NCBI GenBank assembly: GCA_040388535.1
Contig: JAZKBR010000002.1
Coordinates: forward strand, 900,838 to 964,837
DNA from: Gemmatimonadota bacterium
GTDB lineage: Bacteria > Gemmatimonadota > Gemmatimonadetes > Gemmatimonadales > GWC2-71-9
Length of the DNA: 64,000 nt
Direction: 5' to 3'
Positions 11,226 through 45,615 of this stretch are shown here, in pieces (within the stretch, counting starts at the first letter, position 1; every line of letters starts with the position of its first letter). A model generated the notes under the pieces. The model was not told the DNA's origin and did not search any database. It worked only from the letters and a program-made list of their open reading frames with translations. A program made the translations under genes and the position numbers.

Positions 11226-11675
11226 TCAACCGGTGCGGTCAAGCAACACCGGCCCGCCATCGTCCTTTCGCTGACTGTAGCCTGTAAGCAACTGGTCGAG
11301 CGCCTTGTGGGTGTCCTCGAGCTGCCGGGCCACCGAGCGCGCCTCGATTTCCATCTGCCGCGCCAGTTCCATGGCGGCCGCACCAGCCCCTGCGCGCTCG
11401 GTTTCGACCTGGGCCCGGAGGGCCGCGAGCGAAGGCGCGTGCGGAACCAGGTCCGACTGCGCCGCCGCCCGGATCGCGAGCAGACGGACTTCCCGGGCCG
11501 AGAGGTCGCTGATGATCCCGTCGGCCTCGGCCGCGAAGACCTCAAGCATCCCCGCTTCCCCCATCCGGAGCACGGCGTGCTGTGCCTCGACGACGTGGCG
11601 GTAACGCGCCAGGTCGGCGATCTGGGCCGCCAGCAGCGCGGCCATTTCGGTGGGGTCGAACCCGGGGCCAGTCAT
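11226..11675 (-). CDS. FliT/FlgN-like flagellar export chaperone (candidate FliT)
   Basis: 149 residues, almost entirely helical and rich in alanine, glutamate and leucine, as expected for a small type III export chaperone. The ATG overlaps the fliS stop by four bases, so it is the third gene of fliD-fliS-X. That is the place occupied by fliT (the FliD chaperone) in many clusters. Sequence identity to known FliT is too weak to settle this; a FlgN-type protein is encoded separately beside flgK. The functional call rests on position. Confidence 0.55.
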   Translation of the reverse strand: MTGPGFDPTEMAALLAAQIADLARYRHVVEAQHAVLRMGEAGMLEVFAAEADGIISDLSAREVRLLAIRAAAQSDLVPHAPSLAALRAQVETERAGAGAAAMELARQMEIEARSVARQLEDTHKALDQLLTGYSQRKDDGGPVLLDRTG

Positions 11676-12073
11676 CCAGTCGCCGCGGCGGCGGGCTCGG
11701 CGGCGTGCGCCGCGACCGCAGTCCAGGCTTCGTGAAGCTCACTGATCACCCGGACGGCGCCATCGAGGCGCACGACGTCGGGGTGCAGGTGCACGGCGGC
11801 AAACTCTCCCAGCAGCCAGGCATACAGGGCCGCGAGTCGGCCGGCGATCTCGCCACCCGCGTCGTGGTCGAGCGAGACCGCGAGTTCGTGGACGATCTCT
11901 TCGGCCCGAAGCAGGCGGTTGCCGCGCGCTTCGATCTCGCCGCGCTCCATATGGGCGCGCGCCTGACGCAGGTTCACCAGCAGGTGGGTGTAGAGCAGCA
12001 CCACCCGTTGCGCGGGTGACATTGCCATCACTTCCATCTCGCGGTAACGACTCGAATTCGTGCCGTAGCTCAT
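11672..12073 (-). CDS. fliS: Flagellin export chaperone FliS
   Basis: 133 residues from the ATG at 12073, beginning MSYGTNSSRYREMEVMAMSP, which matches the YxxxEV..MSP N-terminus of FliS. VVLLYTHLLVNLRQAR continues the first helices. The frame is open 12 codons further upstream, but that would overlap fliD. FliS binds newly made flagellin and prevents early polymerisation. It starts four bases after the fliD stop. Confidence 0.9.
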   Translation of the reverse strand: MSYGTNSSRYREMEVMAMSPAQRVVLLYTHLLVNLRQARAHMERGEIEARGNRLLRAEEIVHELAVSLDHDAGGEIAGRLAALYAWLLGEFAAVHLHPDVVRLDGAVRVISELHEAWTAVAAHAAEPAAAATG

Positions 12074-12077
12074 GAGA

Positions 12078-14009
12078 TCACTTCGACTGACTGGAGGTGA
12101 GCGAGCCAAGCGCGGTCGACTGCTTCTGCAACGCAGAAATGTTCTGTTCCATCAGCACGAACTGCCGCAGCAATGAGGCGCGGCGTCGAGCGAGACGTTC
12201 ATCCATGTTGGCGACGCGCGTCGTCAAGCCATCCGAGCGGTTCGTCAGTGACGTCACCCGACTGTCGAGGACGCCCGTCGCGGTGTCGAGGAACGAACTG
12301 AGCAGCCGTTCGACCCGTGCGCCGGTGCCCAGCGCGAGGGAGAGGTTGCCGACCGCGCCGGTGCTGGCACCCTGATAGAGTGCCACCAGGCCGGCGGTCG
12401 TCTGCCCCGAATCGCCAACCAGGAGCTGGCCGGTTCCCGTGGCCGCCTTCCCGCCGATCGTGCCGGCGACATCGGTGCCGAAGGCGGATCCATCGCTACT
12501 CCACGCTTCGGATGCGCCATCGCCCGCACCCTGCATCGTGACCGTGACACCGGCGAGCTGCCCGTAGGCATTGTGGCTCACCTTGATGTCGTTGCCCGCC
12601 AGCTCGGCCGTGAGGTCCAGGTTGTTCGCCGCAAAGGCTGCCGTCAACGCAGCCACGATGTCCGACGACGTCATCCCGGTCGTGAGGGCGACATCGACCG
12701 TGGTGTTGTTCTTGGTATCGCGGAAGGTGATGGTGTCCGGGGTGACGCCGGCATCGTACGTGCCGCTGAAGCCCGAGGTCGAGTAGCTCGCGCGGGTGGC
12801 GACCGTGGTGACGTCCACCGCGAAGTCGCCTTCCGAGGAATTGTTCGCGCTCGAGATGAAGCTCAGTCCCGTGCCGCTGGCGCTGCGACGCTCGTTGAAG
12901 AGCGCCGGCAGCTCGGCGAACCGGTCCTTGAACGCGGCCTCGAACTTGGTCGAGTCGAAGTTGATGGTGCCATCGCGGCTGAGCGAGAGGCCGACGCTGG
13001 CGGCGGTCGCCAGATCCGCGGCGGCACCCCCGACGGCCTGCAGCAGCACGCTGGGCAATCCGTTACGCACCGAGCGAATCATCGAATCGCCGTAGAGCGC
13101 CGGCGTGGCGCCGTTGGTGACGGTGCTCTGCGCCTTGACGAAGGTCGAGAGCTTGTTGTACGCGTCGGCAAACGCCTGCATTGCGGTGCGCGCCGGATCG
13201 ATGAAGTGACCCACGGCGATCGAGTTTTCTGCCGTGGCGTCCTCGGCGGTCAGCGTCAACGTCACACCGTCGATGGCATCGGCGATGACGTTCGAGCTGC
13301 GCGTCATCGGGATGTCGTTGATGGCGAAGGTCGCGTTGCGTCCATCGACGAGCACGGCGCTGTTCGGCACCAGGCCGCCGGCCGTGAGCAATCCCAGACC
13401 TTGAAGCACGGTCCCCGACGTATCAGCGAGGGCAATCCCCGCTGCGCCGGTCGCGTTGCTGGTCAGGATGAGCCGGTTGTCGGTCGGTGATACCGAAATG
13501 ATCGTGGCGCTGACGCCGGACGGCGTGGCGCCGGTATTGGCGGCATTGACGGCGTCGCGAATGGTTGCGAGCGAGGCATCGGCCGCGACATTCACCGTCT
13601 TGCCGTTGACGGTGAAACTGCCGGTCACGCCGAGTGCCGTGCTGGTGCTGAGGGTGCCAGTGGCACTCAGCTTCTCGGCCCGGGCGAGTTCCGACACCTT
13701 GAGCGTGTAGGTCGCCGGTGTCGCGGCGGACGTGGTGGCCACCGTGGCGAGTGAACGACCGGAGATGATGGTGCTGGTGGATGACGTGCCTTCGAACGCG
13801 CTGCCATCCCGCAGGGTCTTCGCCGCAGTCTGGAGGGTGGACAACAGGGTGCGGTACGACTCGATCGCGGTCTTCCGGGCCGAGATATTCGAAATCTCGG
13901 TTTCCATTCGGGCGGCGGGGACGCGCGCCTGATTGATGATGGCGTCGACGAGGTCGGTGTACTTGAACCCTGAAATCACGCCGGCAATCGAAGACAACGG
14001 TGTGGTCAT
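12078..14009 (-). CDS. fliD: Flagellar filament cap protein FliD
   Basis: 643 residues. The N-terminal FliD_N domain begins SIAGVISGFKYTDLVDAII and is followed by heptad helices (ARMETEISNISARKTAIESY). The middle is a serine/threonine/alanine-rich variable region, and the C-terminal coiled coil ends in LMEQNISALQKQS. FliD caps the filament and inserts flagellin. It follows fliC after a terminator-like hairpin and leads fliS and the FliT-like gene. Confidence 0.93.
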   Translation of the reverse strand: MTTPLSSIAGVISGFKYTDLVDAIINQARVPAARMETEISNISARKTAIESYRTLLSTLQTAAKTLRDGSAFEGTSSTSTIISGRSLATVATTSAATPATYTLKVSELARAEKLSATGTLSTSTALGVTGSFTVNGKTVNVAADASLATIRDAVNAANTGATPSGVSATIISVSPTDNRLILTSNATGAAGIALADTSGTVLQGLGLLTAGGLVPNSAVLVDGRNATFAINDIPMTRSSNVIADAIDGVTLTLTAEDATAENSIAVGHFIDPARTAMQAFADAYNKLSTFVKAQSTVTNGATPALYGDSMIRSVRNGLPSVLLQAVGGAAADLATAASVGLSLSRDGTINFDSTKFEAAFKDRFAELPALFNERRSASGTGLSFISSANNSSEGDFAVDVTTVATRASYSTSGFSGTYDAGVTPDTITFRDTKNNTTVDVALTTGMTSSDIVAALTAAFAANNLDLTAELAGNDIKVSHNAYGQLAGVTVTMQGAGDGASEAWSSDGSAFGTDVAGTIGGKAATGTGQLLVGDSGQTTAGLVALYQGASTGAVGNLSLALGTGARVERLLSSFLDTATGVLDSRVTSLTNRSDGLTTRVANMDERLARRRASLLRQFVLMEQNISALQKQSTALGSLTSSQSK

Positions 14010-14080: not shown

Positions 14081-15190
14081 TTAGCGGAGGAGCGACAGCA
14101 CCGTCTGGGCGGACTGGTTCGCCTGACCCAGCATCGCCGTACCAGCCTGCTGCAGGATCTGGTACTTGGTGAACGAGGTCATCTCGGCCGCCATGTCGGC
14201 GTCGCGGATGGTCGACTCGGCCGCGATCACGTTCTGCGTGATGGTCGCGACGTTGTTGCTGGCGAACTCGATCCGGCTCTGCGCCGCGCCGATCGTGCCG
14301 ATCGCGGTGTTCGAGCTGTCGATCGCCGAGTCCAGCGCCGTCAGGGCCGCCTGGGCGGTCGTGGCGTTGAGGACGTTCAGGCCGGCGATGTTGAGGCCCG
14401 TGGCGCCGGTGCTGAGGTCGACCGCGGTCAGCGAGACCAGGTCGGTGGTGCTGTAGTTGCCCGACGAGCCGACCATGAAGTCCGCGGCGGCGGTGCCACC
14501 AACGGTGATGGTCAGGCCGTTCAGGTCCGTCGCCGTCACCGAGCTGTTGACGCCGACCGTGATGCCGAGCTTGTCGAAGTTGTAGCTGCCCGCGACGCCA
14601 GCAGGAATCGCCAGCACCTGGGTCGAGTCGCCAGCGGCAGCGCCGGTGGTCAGCGTCGCGACACCAGCGGCGTGCGTGAAGGTGTAGGTGTCCGCCTTCG
14701 CGCCGGTGATCTTGATCGAGGTCACGTCGTTCGCACCGACGGCCAGCGTGCCACCGGTCTGCTTCAGGCCAAGGGTGCCGTCCACGAGGTTGGCGCCCTG
14801 GTACTGGGTGGTGCCGGCGATACGGCCGATTTCGGACTTCAGCGACTGGAACTCGGCGTCCAGCTTGTCGCGCTGCGTGCCGATCGAGGAGGAGTTCGAC
14901 GCGGTGGCGAGTTCCTTCATGCGGTCCAGAATCCCGGAGATCGTGTTCACGGCACCGTCCGCGATCTGCAGCATCGAGGTGGCCTGCGACGCGTTGCGCG
15001 ACGCCTGCTGGAGCGAGCGGCTCTCGGCGCGAAGCTTGTTCGCGATCGCGAGGCCGGCGGCGTCATCGCCCGAACGGTTGATGCGGAAGCCGGACGACAG
15101 CTTGGCGATCTGCTTGTCGAGGCCGGTCGACGACATCGCGACGTTCCGGAGGGCGGTGTTTGCTGCAACGTTCGTCTGAATGCTCGGCAT
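14081..15190 (-). CDS. fliC: Flagellin
   Basis: 369 residues with both conserved flagellin ends. The N-terminal D0/D1 part contains KLSSGFRINRSGDDAAGLAI and LQIADGAVNTISGILDRMKE. The C-terminal part contains ESTIRDADMAAEMTSFTKYQ and ends QTVLSLLR. The central D2-like region is short and serine/threonine-rich. There is no signal peptide, consistent with type III export. GGGAG lies 10 bases before the ATG. A sigma-28-like promoter and a leader with two hairpins lie upstream. Confidence 0.97.
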   Translation of the reverse strand: MPSIQTNVAANTALRNVAMSSTGLDKQIAKLSSGFRINRSGDDAAGLAIANKLRAESRSLQQASRNASQATSMLQIADGAVNTISGILDRMKELATASNSSSIGTQRDKLDAEFQSLKSEIGRIAGTTQYQGANLVDGTLGLKQTGGTLAVGANDVTSIKITGAKADTYTFTHAAGVATLTTGAAAGDSTQVLAIPAGVAGSYNFDKLGITVGVNSSVTATDLNGLTITVGGTAAADFMVGSSGNYSTTDLVSLTAVDLSTGATGLNIAGLNVLNATTAQAALTALDSAIDSSNTAIGTIGAAQSRIEFASNNVATITQNVIAAESTIRDADMAAEMTSFTKYQILQQAGTAMLGQANQSAQTVLSLLR

Positions 15191-15200
15191 GGTACTGTTA

Positions 15201-15263
15201 CTCCCTTAACGGTGTCTTCGGAGCATCCGTGCTCCGGATTGGTGGGCGACCAGAGTGGTCGCC
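15201..15263 (-). promoter_or_regulatory. fliC leader with CsrA-type binding hairpin
   Basis: The predicted 5' leader holds two hairpins: GGCGACCA-CUC-UGGUCGCC (15263-15245) and CGGAGC-ACGGAU-GCUCCG (15236-15219). The second presents ANGGA in its loop, the classic CsrA target. The Shine-Dalgarno AAGGGAG (to 15201) supplies a second GGA-containing site about 25 bases downstream. csrA and fliW are both encoded in this window. Confidence 0.65.
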
Positions 15264-15278
15264 GGCGGTGTGGTGATG

Positions 15279-15305
15279 TTATCGGTCCCCTGCCGAGGAC
15301 CTTGA
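15279..15305 (-). promoter_or_regulatory. Putative sigma-28 promoter of fliC
   Basis: Minus strand: TCAA (15305-15302), 15 bases, ACCGATAA (15286-15279). Its -10 element is identical to that of the flgM promoter. Transcription would start near 15271, giving a leader of about 80 bases. Confidence 0.82.
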
Positions 15306-15310
15306 GCCGG

Positions 15311-15745
15311 CTATTTGGCCGGCGCGCCCAGCAGGGAGGAGAGGTCGAATGGATGGGCCGTGCTGTACTCGGAATCGGCCATGATCGCCTGACGGCCGAG
15401 CCCGGCAACCAGATCGATCAGGACCGGCGCCCGCAGGTTGGCCGTCGCCGCCTGGTCTCCCGACGGGAGGGTCACGATCGCGAGGGCGCCCGGGGTCTGC
15501 GCCCAGGCGTTCTCGGAGACCCGGACCGTTTCCACCAACATGAATGCCAGCTCGGGCGTATCGAGGGACTGGAGCCAGTAGAGCCCGCTCTGCGAGGCAG
15601 GCAACAGGACAAAGCGGCGGCTTTGCTCGAATCCCGGCAGCCCTCGCGGGAAGACCACAGTCTCGTCGGGCGTCACGGTGAGCGGCCCGAAGAGCCGCGT
15701 CTCCACGGTTTCGGCCAGGAACTTGTCGCGTGGAACCGCGCTCAT
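15311..15745 (-). CDS. fliW: Flagellar assembly factor FliW
   Basis: 144 residues. TRLFGPLTVTPDETVVFPRG-LPGFEQSRRFVLLP and LQSLDTPELAFMLVE are the hallmark stretches of FliW. FliW binds either flagellin or CsrA: when flagellin is exported, freed FliW titrates CsrA and flagellin translation resumes. Its ATG overlaps the flgL stop (ATGA), and fliC begins 121 bases downstream. csrA lies at 45367. Confidence 0.92.
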   Translation of the reverse strand: MSAVPRDKFLAETVETRLFGPLTVTPDETVVFPRGLPGFEQSRRFVLLPASQSGLYWLQSLDTPELAFMLVETVRVSENAWAQTPGALAIVTLPSGDQAATANLRAPVLIDLVAGLGRQAIMADSEYSTAHPFDLSSLLGAPAK

Positions 15746-16614
15746 GTGAGGTAGTCCGTCAGGGAGGTGTTGAGGATCCGGCTGGTCGCGAGCATGGCCG
15801 CCTGCACCGAGCTCTGGACCTGGGCGAGGTGCATCGCCGCCTCTTCGAGCGGAATGTCGGCGTTGGCGCTGCGCTCGTCAGTGAACGCGTTGGCGAGCGA
15901 ATCGAGCGCCGTCGAGGCGTTGTCCATCGCCAGCGTGCGGGCACCCACTTCGGCGAGGTTGCGCTGGGTGTTGTCGAAAGCGCTTCCCAGTGGCGCGAGC
16001 GAGTCACGAATCGCAGTCGGGTTATCGGCCGTGAGCGCGTCCCGCAGGGTGATGAGCGAGGAGAGGACGCCAGAGTCCACCAGCATCTGCTGGCCGCTGT
16101 GGACCGTGTTGATCACGTCGCCTGCGCCGATCTCGGCCTGTCGTCCCAGTGCGCTTCCGACGTATGTTCCGTCGGCCTGAAATGGTGGTGCCGCGATTTC
16201 CGTCCCACCAAAGACGAACTCGTTGCCCACCTTCAGGTTCCCGATCGAAATCGTCTGGTCAATGAGCGTCTGGACTTCGACGGCGGCTGCGGCCCGGCTC
16301 GCCGCGTTGGCGGTGCTGCCACCCTGCCCGGTGGCAAGCTCCTGGGCCCGGGAGAGCAGGTCGGTCACCTGACCGAGCGAAGACTCTTCCGAGGCGAGCC
16401 GGGTCTGCACCGAGGTCACGCTCCGACGGTACTGCTGGACGGCGCGGGAACCGCGGTCGGCGCGGAGCACGGCGGCGCCCGCGACCGGGTCGTCCGAAAT
16501 GTTCTCGTGGCGGGCACCGGTGGCGACTTGCTGGGACGCTTCGTTCAATGACCGGTTTTGCGCCTGCAGGTTCCGCAGGAGCCGGTCGTTGACCATGAAG
16601 TTGGTAATGCGCAC
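15742..16614 (-). CDS. flgL: Hook-filament junction protein FlgL (HAP3)
   Basis: 290 residues beginning MRITNFMVNDRLLRNLQAQN from a GTG at 16614, with GGAGG 6 bases before it. The N-terminal part includes QQVATGARHENISDDPVAG, a flagellin-like D0/D1 segment. The C-terminal end is LNTSLTDYL. The frame is open upstream to 16803, but that stretch lacks FlgL character and overlaps the divergent regulator. Unusually for the pair, flgL is separated from flgK by nearly 28 kb and is coupled to fliW instead. Confidence 0.92.
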   Translation of the reverse strand: MRITNFMVNDRLLRNLQAQNRSLNEASQQVATGARHENISDDPVAGAAVLRADRGSRAVQQYRRSVTSVQTRLASEESSLGQVTDLLSRAQELATGQGGSTANAASRAAAAVEVQTLIDQTISIGNLKVGNEFVFGGTEIAAPPFQADGTYVGSALGRQAEIGAGDVINTVHSGQQMLVDSGVLSSLITLRDALTADNPTAIRDSLAPLGSAFDNTQRNLAEVGARTLAMDNASTALDSLANAFTDERSANADIPLEEAAMHLAQVQSSVQAAMLATSRILNTSLTDYLT

Positions 16615-16648
16615 CTGGGACCTCCATCCGAGAGTGGCGGTGCCGCGA

Positions 16649-16675
16649 GTATCGGATACCTTTTCAAAGGCTTGA
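16649..16675 (-). promoter_or_regulatory. Putative sigma-28 promoter of flgL-fliW
   Basis: Minus strand: TCAA (16675-16672), 15 bases, TCCGATAC (16656-16649). The -35 element is identical to that of fliC. It lies 35 bases before the flgL GTG and faces away from the NtrC-type regulator at 16688. Confidence 0.7.
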
Positions 16676-16687
16676 GTCGGGAAGCTG

Positions 16688-18088
16688 ATGACCACGATTC
16701 TGTGCGTTGACGACGAACCAGCGGTCGGGGCCCTCTTTGAGCAGGTACTGGGAGAGCTCGGCTTCGGCGTGATCCTCGCCACCAATGGCGAGGAAGCGCT
16801 CAAAGTCCTTGATGCGCATCACGTTGACCTGATTCTCGCCGACTTCCAGATGCCCCACATGAACGGGCTCGACCTGCTTCACACCCTCGAGACCCGCCAC
16901 CTGAAGATCCCGGTCGTCATCATCACCGGACACTCCAGTGTGGAACACGCCGTCCTCACCATGCGCAGCGGCGCGGTCGACTACATCACCAAGCCCGTCC
17001 GGGCCGACACCCTTCAGATCACCGTCCAGCACGCTCTCGACTATGCCCGGCTCCGCTCGGAAAATGAAGTCTTCCGCCAGGAAATCACCCGGATCCAGTC
17101 GCGCCGGAAGTTCGTGGGGCGCAGTCCGGCCGTCCGCGACCTCCTTGATACTGTCGCTACGGTAGCTCCAACTCGGGCGTCGGTCCTGCTCGAAGGAGAA
17201 TCAGGCACCGGGAAGGAGCTGGTCGCTCGGGCCATTCACGATCAGAGCCCCCGGCGAGACCTGGCTTTCGTCACGGTCAACTGCGCCGCGCTCCCCGAGG
17301 GACTGGTCGAGAGCGTCCTCTTCGGACACGAAAAGGGCGCCTTCACTGGCGCCACGGCTCGGGCGGCTGGTGCCTTCGAGCGCGCCAATCGGGGGACCTT
17401 GCTGCTCGACGAGATTTCGGAGATGCGGCTCGACCTTCAGGCCAAGCTGTTGCGGGCGATCCAGGAGCAGGAGTTCGAGCGGGTCGGTGGTCGGGACACG
17501 GTCAAGGTCGACGTGCGGATCATCGCGACCACCAATCGCGACCTCCACGCCGAGGTCGCGGCCGGCCGCTTCCGGGCGGACCTCTATTATCGCCTGCACG
17601 TGGTCCCGATCCGGACGCCGCCGCTGCGCGAGCGACCCGACGACATCCCCTTGCTGGTCCAGCACTTCATCAAGAGCGCCTCGGAGTCGCTCGGACTGGC
17701 CGTCGGTGACCTCCCGGCCGAGACGATCACCTTCCTGCAGCAGTATTCCTGGCCCGGCAATGTCCGCGAGCTCGCCAATGCGGTGGAGCGCGCGGTGATT
17801 CTGGCCCGGGGGCGGCCGATGGTGCCCGAGATCTTTGCGGCCTACCTCCGGCACGACAGCCACGCACCGGCGATCGCCGCAGGCGGCGGTCTCGTCCCGG
17901 GCGCCCCTGCGGCGACGGTGACGTCCGGCGAAGCAGCCGCCCTCCCGCTCAACCTCGAAGAGCTGGAAAAGATCACCATCAAGCGGGCCCTCGAGAGCAC
18001 CGGCGGCAACCGGGTCCGGGCTGCCGGACTGCTCGGAATCAGCGAACGAACCCTCCGCAACAAGCTGAACATTCCCGCCCCAGGCTGA
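16688..18088 (+). CDS. NtrC-family sigma-54-dependent response regulator, flagellar master regulator (FlrC/FleR type)
   Basis: 466 residues. The receiver domain has D8/D9 and a phosphoacceptor Asp in LADFQMPHMNG. The AAA+ domain shows GESGTGKE (Walker A), GAFTGA (sigma-54 contact) and LLLDEISEM (Walker B). A Fis-type helix-turn-helix follows at the end (NRVRAAGLLGISERTLRNKL). Its place immediately before the sigma-54-type promoter of flgB, and divergent from flgL, supports control of the middle flagellar operons. A likely kinase partner is the sensor-less histidine kinase at 45589-46320. The FlrC/FleR equivalence is by domain order and context. Confidence 0.93.
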   Translation: MTTILCVDDEPAVGALFEQVLGELGFGVILATNGEEALKVLDAHHVDLILADFQMPHMNGLDLLHTLETRHLKIPVVIITGHSSVEHAVLTMRSGAVDYITKPVRADTLQITVQHALDYARLRSENEVFRQEITRIQSRRKFVGRSPAVRDLLDTVATVAPTRASVLLEGESGTGKELVARAIHDQSPRRDLAFVTVNCAALPEGLVESVLFGHEKGAFTGATARAAGAFERANRGTLLLDEISEMRLDLQAKLLRAIQEQEFERVGGRDTVKVDVRIIATTNRDLHAEVAAGRFRADLYYRLHVVPIRTPPLRERPDDIPLLVQHFIKSASESLGLAVGDLPAETITFLQQYSWPGNVRELANAVERAVILARGRPMVPEIFAAYLRHDSHAPAIAAGGGLVPGAPAATVTSGEAAALPLNLEELEKITIKRALESTGGNRVRAAGLLGISERTLRNKLNIPAPG

Positions 18089-38045: not shown

Positions 38046-38807
38046 ATGGCACCCGCAACCGAAGTACTCTGGCAACGATATCGGAAACACGGCGACGCCG
38101 ACGCGCGCGCCGAACTGCTGACCCAACACCTGGGGCTGGTGCATCACACGGCGCGGCAGATTGCCGCACGAGTGGGTGACGCGCTTGCGTACGAGGATAT
38201 GGTCGGGGCAGGAACGCTCGGGCTGGTGCAGGCGCTGGAAGCCTTCGATCCGGAGCGCGGCTTCGCCTTTGCGACCTTCGCGACCCAGCGGATCCGCGGC
38301 TCCATCCTCGATGAGCTTCGTGCGGCCGATTGGCGGCCCCGATCGGTGCGCACCAAGGGGCGTCAGGTCTCCACCGCGACGACCGCGCTTGAGCGGAAAC
38401 TCGGTCGGCGCCCGCGGCCGGAAGAGGTCGCGCACGAACTGCAGATCGATCTGGCGACCTACTGGCGCTGGCGGAATGACGCCGAGACCGGTGTGACCGT
38501 GGCGCTCGACACCGCCCCAGCGGGCGGCGAAGGCGGGCGACCGTCGCTCGCCGAACTGCTCGCCGACGACAACTCCCCGGCGCCCGATGCCGGCATCGCA
38601 CGCGATGAGCGTCGCACCCTGGTGCGCGAGGCGATCGCTTCCTTGCCGGAGCAGCAGCGCACCGTGCTCGCACTCTACTACTACGAGGAACTCACCCTGC
38701 GGCAGATCGCCGAGGTGCTGCACGTCACGGAATCGCGGATTTCACAGGTGCGGACCGCCGCGTTGCGGACACTGCGCGAGTACATGACGGCGGAGGCGGC
38801 CGCATGA
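38046..38807 (+). CDS. fliA: Flagellar sigma factor FliA (sigma-28)
   Basis: 253 residues. Region 2 contains YEDMVGAGTLGLVQALEAFD and GFAFATFATQRIRGSILDEL. Region 3 contains KLGRRPRPEEVAHEL. Region 4 contains LPEQQRTVLALYYYEELTLR followed by QIAEVLHVTESRISQ. It should direct the sigma-28-type promoters listed in this window and is held in check by FlgM. It lies at the end of the sigma-54-driven fliL operon. Confidence 0.96.
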   Translation: MAPATEVLWQRYRKHGDADARAELLTQHLGLVHHTARQIAARVGDALAYEDMVGAGTLGLVQALEAFDPERGFAFATFATQRIRGSILDELRAADWRPRSVRTKGRQVSTATTALERKLGRRPRPEEVAHELQIDLATYWRWRNDAETGVTVALDTAPAGGEGGRPSLAELLADDNSPAPDAGIARDERRTLVREAIASLPEQQRTVLALYYYEELTLRQIAEVLHVTESRISQVRTAALRTLREYMTAEAAA

Positions 38808-43995: not shown

Positions 43996-45363
43996 ATGTC
44001 TCTGGGCTCCTTGCTCAGCATCGCCAAGTCGGCGCTTCAGACGCAGCAGAGCGCGCTGAATGTGACCGGCCACAACATCGCCAACGCGACGACCCCCGGT
44101 TACACCCGCCAGCGGATCGCCCTTACAGCCGAGACGCCACTGCGGACGCCTCAGGGCACCATCGGTCGCGGCGTTACCGACGAAGGGATCTTCGCCACAC
44201 GGAATCGCTTCCTCGACGCGTCGTATCGTCGCGAGACCGGCGTCTTCCAGCATGCCGACACGCTGCGAGACCTGATGGGCCGCGTAGAGCAGGTCTTCGG
44301 CGAACCATCGGACAACGGGCTCGCGGCATCGATCGATGCCTTCTTCAGTTCGTTCTCCGACCTTGCCAACGATCCTGCCTCACTCTCGGCGCGCGCAGCA
44401 GTCCAGCAGGCAGGCCAGCAGCTGGTACGGCAGATCGGCACCATCGACGGCCGGATCAACGAGGTCAACCAGACCGTCGTCGACACCTTCCGCGATACCG
44501 TGACACAGGTCAACTCGATCGCCCAGCAGGTGGCGACGCTCAACCAGCAGATTGTGGTGGCGGGCGGTCCCAATCGCACCGCGCCGGACCTGCAGGATGC
44601 GCGCGGCAAGTTGCTCGATCAGCTCGCGGGCTACGGTTCGGTGCGGGTCATCGAGCACGACAACGGTTCGGTGGGTGTGGTGTTCGGTGACACGCTGCTC
44701 GTCGATGGCAGTCAGCAGCAGACGCTGGATGTTCGTACTCCGGTCGGGGGCGGCCTCTTCGCTGGCGTCGTCGGCGAAACCCGCAACCTCACACCGATTG
44801 CCGGGTCGCTCGCAGCACTTTCCGAACTCGCCGGGCAGGGGCTGCCGAGCGTGCGCGCCGAACTCGATCGCCTGACGTCGGCACTGGTAACCTCCGTCAA
44901 CGCCATCCACGCCGCGGGTACCACCAATGCCGGCGCGACCAATACCAACTTCTTCGATCCGGCCGGCATCACCGCGAATTCGTTTGCCCTCGCTGCACCG
45001 ATCGCCGCCAACGCTGCGAATATCGTGGCCGGGACCACGGCCGCCTCCGGTGACAACGCCGTTGCGCTGCAGCTGGCCGGCTTGCGGACCACCCCGATTG
45101 CCTCGCTCAACAGCAGCACGGCCGGTGAATTCTACGTGTCGCTGGTCTCGAGCGTCGGCAGCATCGTGCGCGATGCGACCCAGGAATCAGATGCCTCGGA
45201 AGCACTCGCCAACGGCACCGCGACGCGTCGCTCCAGTGCGACCGGCGTGTCGACCGATGAGGAGATGGTTGACCTGATGGTCCACCAGCAGGCATTCGCG
45301 GCAGCATCGCGCCTCGTCAAGGTCGCCGACGACCTGATGCAGACCTTGCTCACGATGGTCTGA
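43996..45363 (+). CDS. flgK: Hook-filament junction protein FlgK (HAP1)
   Basis: 455 residues, shorter than the 547 of enteric FlgK because the middle region is reduced. It begins SLGSLLSIAKSALQTQQSAL with VTGHNIANATTPGYTRQRI. The C-terminal end has GVSTDEEMVDLMVHQQAFAA and ASRLVKVADDLMQTLLTM. It links hook to filament with FlgL. csrA starts 3 bases later. Confidence 0.95.
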   Translation: MSLGSLLSIAKSALQTQQSALNVTGHNIANATTPGYTRQRIALTAETPLRTPQGTIGRGVTDEGIFATRNRFLDASYRRETGVFQHADTLRDLMGRVEQVFGEPSDNGLAASIDAFFSSFSDLANDPASLSARAAVQQAGQQLVRQIGTIDGRINEVNQTVVDTFRDTVTQVNSIAQQVATLNQQIVVAGGPNRTAPDLQDARGKLLDQLAGYGSVRVIEHDNGSVGVVFGDTLLVDGSQQQTLDVRTPVGGGLFAGVVGETRNLTPIAGSLAALSELAGQGLPSVRAELDRLTSALVTSVNAIHAAGTTNAGATNTNFFDPAGITANSFALAAPIAANAANIVAGTTAASGDNAVALQLAGLRTTPIASLNSSTAGEFYVSLVSSVGSIVRDATQESDASEALANGTATRRSSATGVSTDEEMVDLMVHQQAFAAASRLVKVADDLMQTLLTMV

Positions 45364-45366
45364 GCC

Positions 45367-45615
45367 ATGCTGGTCCTGAGCCGAAAGGAAGGCGAGGCGA
45401 TCGTGATCGACGGCAACATCCGTGTGGTGGTGCTATCGAGCGATCGTCGTGGCGTTCGGCTTGGAATCGAGGCACCGACGGAAACCGGGATCCTGCGTGA
45501 GGAACTGGTGGTGCAGGTGGCGTCGGAAAATCAGCGGGCCCGTGCCAGCAATGACGCGTCGGCGTGGGCCGCGCGCGTCCCGCTTCGTTCAGTTCGGGGC
45601 AACCGGCCGGGCTGA
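45367..45615 (+). CDS. csrA: Translational regulator CsrA
   Basis: 82 residues. [39 protein letters not shown] contain the RNA-contacting L4/R6 region and the Arg of ILREEL. The last 20 or so residues are an extension beyond the usual 61-70. It is predicted to bind the fliC leader and be titrated by FliW. It lies directly after flgK, and its 3' end overlaps the end of a convergent kinase gene by 27 bases. Confidence 0.95.

Follow-up and report, generated by a model that had tools for sequence, protein, structure and literature searches.

As published for B. subtilis hag and C. jejuni flaA, CsrA blocks the flagellin message, FliW releases it, and unexported flagellin in turn sequesters FliW (PMC6529632, PMC4894983, PMC7652899). 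In hag, the CsrA sites BS1 and BS2 are an upstream site and a site over the Shine-Dalgarno sequence (SD); CsrA carries N55, it blocks the ribosome, and FliW relieves this block (PMC8523840, PMC7652899). The flaA leader (Dugar 2016, PMC4894983) is 45 nt long, with two stem-loops. It is a short sigma-28 leader whose first ANGGA site lies in a hexaloop hairpin and whose other site coincides with the ribosome site; the GGAs are spaced by 21 nt, and the stems show compensatory changes. CsrA binding has been proven and is antagonised by FliW. The same paper names the RsmE/CsrA hexaloop type and cites a GGA spacing of 18 nt as the optimum for the CsrA dimer (PMC4894983). For Clostridioides difficile fliC, the passage on it in PMC8523840 gives a 91-nt leader with a predicted BS1 GACAAGGATGT, a BS2 over the SD, and both FliW and CsrA, and describes no 5′ hairpin.

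The window analysed here, a 64,000-nucleotide stretch of a Gemmatimonadota genome, contains a fliC leader that very probably forms the RNA half of such a FliW-CsrA-flagellin homeostasis switch. Several of these flaA features recur in it: a short sigma-28 leader holds two ANGGA sites, of which the first is presented by a hexaloop hairpin and the second coincides with the ribosome site, the GGAs have the 21-nt spacing, and the stems show compensatory changes. With hag it shares the upstream site, the site over the SD and N55 in CsrA, and it resembles C. difficile fliC in layout while differing from it in phylum and sequence. In contrast to flaA, the predicted leader is about 82 nt long and carries a conserved 5′ hairpin, the second hairpin is weak, and the CsrA site is predicted from sequence. 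Because flaA already has two ANGGA hexaloops 21 bases apart, the second on the ribosome site, with compensatory changes, the kind of system is known; new here are the phylum, the comparative evidence, the third (5′) hairpin and the altered partners. No paper on CsrA-flagellin control in Gemmatimonadota was found in the literature library searched. The relevant features are as follows.

11672..12109, minus strand: fliS, export chaperone for flagellin
12078..14009, minus strand: fliD, downstream of fliC
14081..15190, minus strand: fliC (flagellin), the predicted target gene, ATG at 15190
15197..15210, minus strand: SL2, GUUA-AGGGAG-UAAC around the SD, the other CsrA-type site; its hairpin is weak here and gains strength in relatives
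15219..15236, minus strand: SL1, CGGAGC-ACGGAU-GCUCCG, hexaloop A-N-GGA-N; from sequence, folding and covariation
15245..15263, minus strand: 5′ hairpin GGCGACCA-CUC-UGGUCGCC, near the predicted 5′ end; pair probability 0.66-0.99
15279..15305, minus strand: sigma-28-type promoter TCAAGGTC-N11-ACCGATAA, read from sequence; motif conserved in relatives
15311..15745, minus strand: fliW, CsrA antagonist gene with a shortened middle segment; profile-confirmed
15742..16803 as listed open frame, minus strand: flgL, upstream gene overlapping fliW
38046..38807, plus strand: fliA (sigma-28), match G000:C2:938952-939623 over the curated cut-off
43996..45363, plus strand: flgK, upstream partner of csrA
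45367..45615, plus strand: csrA, directly 3′ of flgK; product with R44, V51, N55 and a C-terminal extension; profile-confirmed

The minus-strand genes follow the order flgL-fliW-fliC-fliD-fliS. The fliW start overlaps the flgL stop by four bases, and 120 bases separate the fliW stop (15311) from the fliC ATG (15190). The true start of flgL is probably near 16612, inside the listed frame. On the plus strand, flgK (stop 45363) and csrA (start 45367) form a joined pair 30 kb from fliW-fliC. Profile searches bore out the preliminary description, which had placed fliW at 15311 and csrA at 45367 after flgK. In Bacillus, csrA follows fliW directly; here csrA lies 3′ of flgK and fliW 3′ of flgL, so that the Bacillus-type neighbourhood is broken up, with flgK-csrA lying about 30 kb from flgL-fliW-fliC. 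The separation of csrA and fliW is also about 30 kb in other Gemmatimonadota where both are on one contig, and about 3.5 kb in family f10. The nearest named relatives of the window are Gemmatimonadetes/Gemmatimonadota MAGs, and within its own genus flagellin is patchy, being present in 4 of 10 sampled genomes.

The 82-aa CsrA of the window has the features that, following PMC7829508, mark FliW-controlled CsrA proteins, namely the RNA-binding R44, V51/N55 and a C-terminal extension; V51 and N55 are needed for FliW binding (PMC7829508). N55 is kept in 18 of 20 other CsrA proteins sampled in the phylum and missing from two. FliW scored over the Pfam FliW cut-off in two pieces and matched the FliW structure 5DMB at 1.6e-13. 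In the window's genus, as seen in the window, L033 and L036, FliW has lost about 15 middle residues after the sixth strand. The lost segment, DPFxFxxGYxxDL, is kept in most relatives, with G120 being intermediate.

This loss raises the best-surviving alternative, that CsrA does bind the fliC leader yet can no longer be countered by the shortened FliW, leaving CsrA as a constitutive brake or under the control of another factor. We consider this unlikely. The predicted FliW model (pLDDT 93) matches the fold of 5DMB, 5DMD and 2AJ7, so the fold is predicted to be intact despite the shortened middle. The flagellin-contact regions of B. subtilis FliW (residues 3-11, 22-28 and 95-115; PMC6070490) appear to lie outside the lost segment. 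CsrA, moreover, retains V51 and N55, and fliW is retained beside fliC.

SL1 lies exactly where the preliminary description had put a 6-bp hairpin with loop ACGGAU, at 15236-15219 on the minus strand. Its 5′ arm CGGAGC occupies 15236-15231, the loop 15230-15225 with GGA at 15228-15226, and the 3′ arm GCUCCG 15224-15219. The loop ACGGAU, closed between C and G, is of the high-affinity CsrA/RsmE hexaloop type found in the RsmE-hcnA and CsrA CANGGANG hairpins; those systems are released by sRNAs (RsmZ, CsrB), not by FliW. Pair probability of SL1 in the free RNA is about 0.86, and the whole leader folds somewhat better than its shuffles (z −1.9). A 6-bp ANGGAN hairpin rarely arose by chance in 5000 dinucleotide shuffles of the 81-base leader (P = 0.0008). 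The 64-kb window holds five ANGGAN hairpins of at least 5 bp on both strands, and SL1 alone precedes an SD and a start codon.

For the comparison across the phylum, a flagellin profile built from twelve loci located flagellin genes in 65 of 249 Gemmatimonadota genomes; with the window and two other representatives of its genus added, 82 leaders were compared. ANGGAN hairpins with at least 5 perfect bp, counted in the last 80 bases before the ATG, occurred in 72 of the 82, where shuffled versions of these leaders would give 0.23, confirming that the observation is real and far beyond chance. The hexaloop starts 31-47 bases upstream of the ATG. Stems vary among leaders (CGGAGC, CGGGGC, UCGGGAC, GAGGGA, CGGGGA, GAGGC, GGCGGGU, UAUUAAGC); where a stem contained an ANGGA of its own, such as GAGGGA, the 3′-most candidate was taken by rule. 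In the 73 distinct hairpins, all eight SL1 stem pairs showed double changes, 79.5% of alignment cells paired (59.9% in shuffles), and the covariation score was 0.591, compared with 0.241 in shuffles, and was lost when partners were slid. The loop A, G, G and A were invariant in these hairpins while the N positions varied freely; the ANGGA motif had served to anchor the hairpins, and still 81 of 82 leaders have one at the right place. Covariation of the stem around a fixed GGA loop, a check named beforehand, was thus strongly passed, and loss of the GGA loop was looked for in close relatives and not seen. Such a phylum-wide alignment with compensatory stem changes goes beyond resemblance alone and argues that the upstream site, CsrA-type by its sequence, is in a hairpin under selection.

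Genomes of family f10 encode several flagellins each; there the paralog starting PGLSINTN lacks a good SL1 and most of its siblings have one (L108, L110, L111, L116, L121). Flagellin paralogs of this family may differ in CsrA control.

The SD supplies the second site proposed in the preliminary description. The region AAGGGAG (15207-15201) includes AGGGA, with GGA at 15204-15202, leaving 21 nt between the SL1 and SD GGAs (24 start to start). Almost all leaders of the phylum have a CsrA-type motif as SD, AGGGA in the window and ACGGA, AAGGA or AUGGA elsewhere, and the GGA-to-GGA distance is 21-25 nt start to start in most of them, close to the 21-nt flaA spacing and the 18-nt dimer optimum. The SD site itself held up; the hexaloop hairpin that the SD tends to form in relatives had been overlooked. 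Flanks of the SD hexaloop pair at three or more positions in 40 of 71 distinct leaders; when 5′ flanks were exchanged between leaders 1000 times, the count averaged 11.4 and never exceeded 20. SL2 pairs also covary in an alignment of 45 hexaloop-type leaders, a subset chosen by type, and the flank-swap figure is consequently the unbiased one. In a second leader group the SD flanks either enclose a longer loop or fail to pair; 26 leaders form no hexaloop stem from these flanks. SL2 of the window has only 4 bp and a probability of 0.07 in the free leader RNA, and in its two closest relatives it has 5 bp. Many SDs read ACGGAGG rather than AAGGAGG (L088-L103 and others), a poorer ribosome match that keeps the CsrA ACGGA motif.

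The element is coupled to csrA and fliW across the phylum. Of the 249 genomes, 67 encode CsrA, 64 FliW and 65 flagellin, and 66 carry the RNA element; 59 genomes have all four and 175 none. Fisher p-values for co-occurrence ranged from 1e-42 to 1e-55; they ignore kinship, and part of the association simply reflects whether a genome is flagellated or not, because flagella are gained and lost as a whole. G248 has a flagellin-like gene in a genome without CsrA and FliW, and its leader lacks the element. Outside the phylum, the leaders of L179 and L186, from CsrA-less genomes, also lack it, a limited contrast because 48 of 50 flagellated genomes had CsrA.

These distributions bear on a second alternative, in which the hairpins serve only mRNA stability or exposure of the ribosome-binding site and the GGA loop is incidental. 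In its favour, the 5′ hairpin could plausibly stabilise the message, and SDs often have hairpins nearby. However, A-N-GGA-N stands in all 73 distinct hairpins though stem and N positions change freely; a purely structural role would leave the loop free to vary, and its invariance counts against such an explanation, as do the CsrA-less cases G248, L179 and L186. We regard it as very improbable.

A covariance model of SL1, SL2 and the ATG, trained on a set that included the window leader, matched the fliC leader in its own genome at 2.8e-11. The next best match there had an E-value of 0.28, and the model revealed no convincing further CsrA target in this genome. Over the 249 genomes, almost every match lay directly before a flagellin gene, and most flagellated genomes of the phylum had one matched flagellin leader. 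Leaders of the SL1-SL2 type also precede two non-flagellin genes in the distant family f10, L231 (G003:C40:28298), coding for an unassigned 170-aa protein, and L232 (G007:C109:22005), an open frame of 79 aa; these genes are candidate further CsrA targets. No family reached its gathering score in a scan against Rfam 15, the sole match being PhotoRC-I on the opposite strand (12.3 bits versus 45 required).

The promoter TCAAGGTC-N11-ACCGATAA at 15305-15279 predicts a fliC transcript start near 15272, in agreement with the earlier guess of 15271, and hence a leader at about 15272-15191 on the minus strand. A sigma-28 motif stands at a similar distance, about 75-90 nt before the ATG, in most Gemmatimonadales flagellin genes. 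Length hardly varies across the 60 leaders in which a sigma-28 site could be recognised, the Gemmatimonadales ones included; most measure 71-85 nt. A start downstream of 15219, which would leave SL1 out of the message, appears disfavoured, since the conserved motif places the start upstream of SL1. The least probable alternative, that SL1 belongs to a long fliW-fliC read-through transcript controlling something else and fliC is read from a shorter message starting below SL1, draws on the short gap and on a scan of it that found no terminator, but we give it next to no weight given the conserved distance of the sigma-28 site upstream of SL1, the leader lengths just quoted and the absence of a sigma-70 promoter or any further promoter-like site in the scanned gap.

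Upstream of SL1 lies the 5′ hairpin. The preliminary description had mentioned a further hairpin, which we located at 15263-15245; its existence stands, and what had been missed is that it is a conserved, separately placed element. In the same 60 leaders, the stretch between the predicted start and SL1 is more stably folded than its shuffled versions (mean z −2.1; 52 of 60 below −1), and the stable part is nearly always a hairpin near the predicted 5′ end. Its covariation within one clade is weak, so the support comes from structural conservation and not from covariation. The sequence of the hairpin varies between leaders (window 15245-15263; L046-L105) while leader length stays nearly constant. 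It was absent from the few distant family f10 leaders that could be examined. The plainest reading is a 5′-terminal stem that would protect or stabilise the fliC message. A terminator role for the GGCGACCA hairpin was rejected, as no U run follows the stem and it lies inside the leader.

The preliminary description had read the locus as FliW-CsrA control of flagellin, and the present data support that reading. By analogy with homologs, from which we infer CsrA binding, bridging, the FliW step and the feedback, the preferred switch would work as follows. Sigma-28 would transcribe fliC with a leader of about 82 nt, and a CsrA dimer would place one pocket on the ACGGAU hexaloop of SL1 and the other, bridging 21 nt, on the SD AGGGA. 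Bound CsrA would keep ribosomes away from fliC. During filament growth, as flagellin is being exported, free FliW would bind CsrA beside the RNA pocket, at the helix of V51/N55, and release the message, as FliW does for hag and flaA. Once export stops, flagellin would bind FliW, CsrA would be free again, and fliC would be silenced. Points against the switch are the weak SL2 of the window, the 26 leaders whose SD flanks form no hexaloop stem, the lost middle of FliW, the position of csrA away from fliW, the missing N55 in 2 of 20 sampled proteins, and the small number of CsrA-less flagellated genomes that could serve as controls.

Beyond the phylum, 80 flagellin loci from a wide range of phyla were inspected, and a fair share of the Firmicutes, Actinobacteria, Bdellovibrio-type, Deltaproteobacteria and Scalindua records showed the motif pair. 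Examples are the Natroniella leader with UUUUCAGC-ACGGAU-GCUGAAAA and the Scalindua leader with AAAAUC-AAGGAG-GAUUUU around the SD. Tentatively, and at somewhat less than even confidence, we suggest a single ancient element in which two ANGGA sites lie about 21 nt from each other and the second sits on the ribosome site. This element, which Rfam lacks, would have persisted from early in bacterial evolution in Gemmatimonadota, Firmicutes, Actinobacteria, Bdellovibrio-type and other phyla. Under this proposal Gemmatimonadota would have gained a third, 5′-terminal hairpin with its own role, and the trimmed FliW would work in this genus.

With the covariance model, flagellin leaders can be picked out of raw genomes. 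How much the switch can change and yet work is a question raised by the conserved 5′ hairpin, the shortened FliW of the genus and the moved csrA. As judged from sequence comparison, the translational homeostasis switch so well defined in Bacillus and Campylobacter would now extend to a little-studied phylum.
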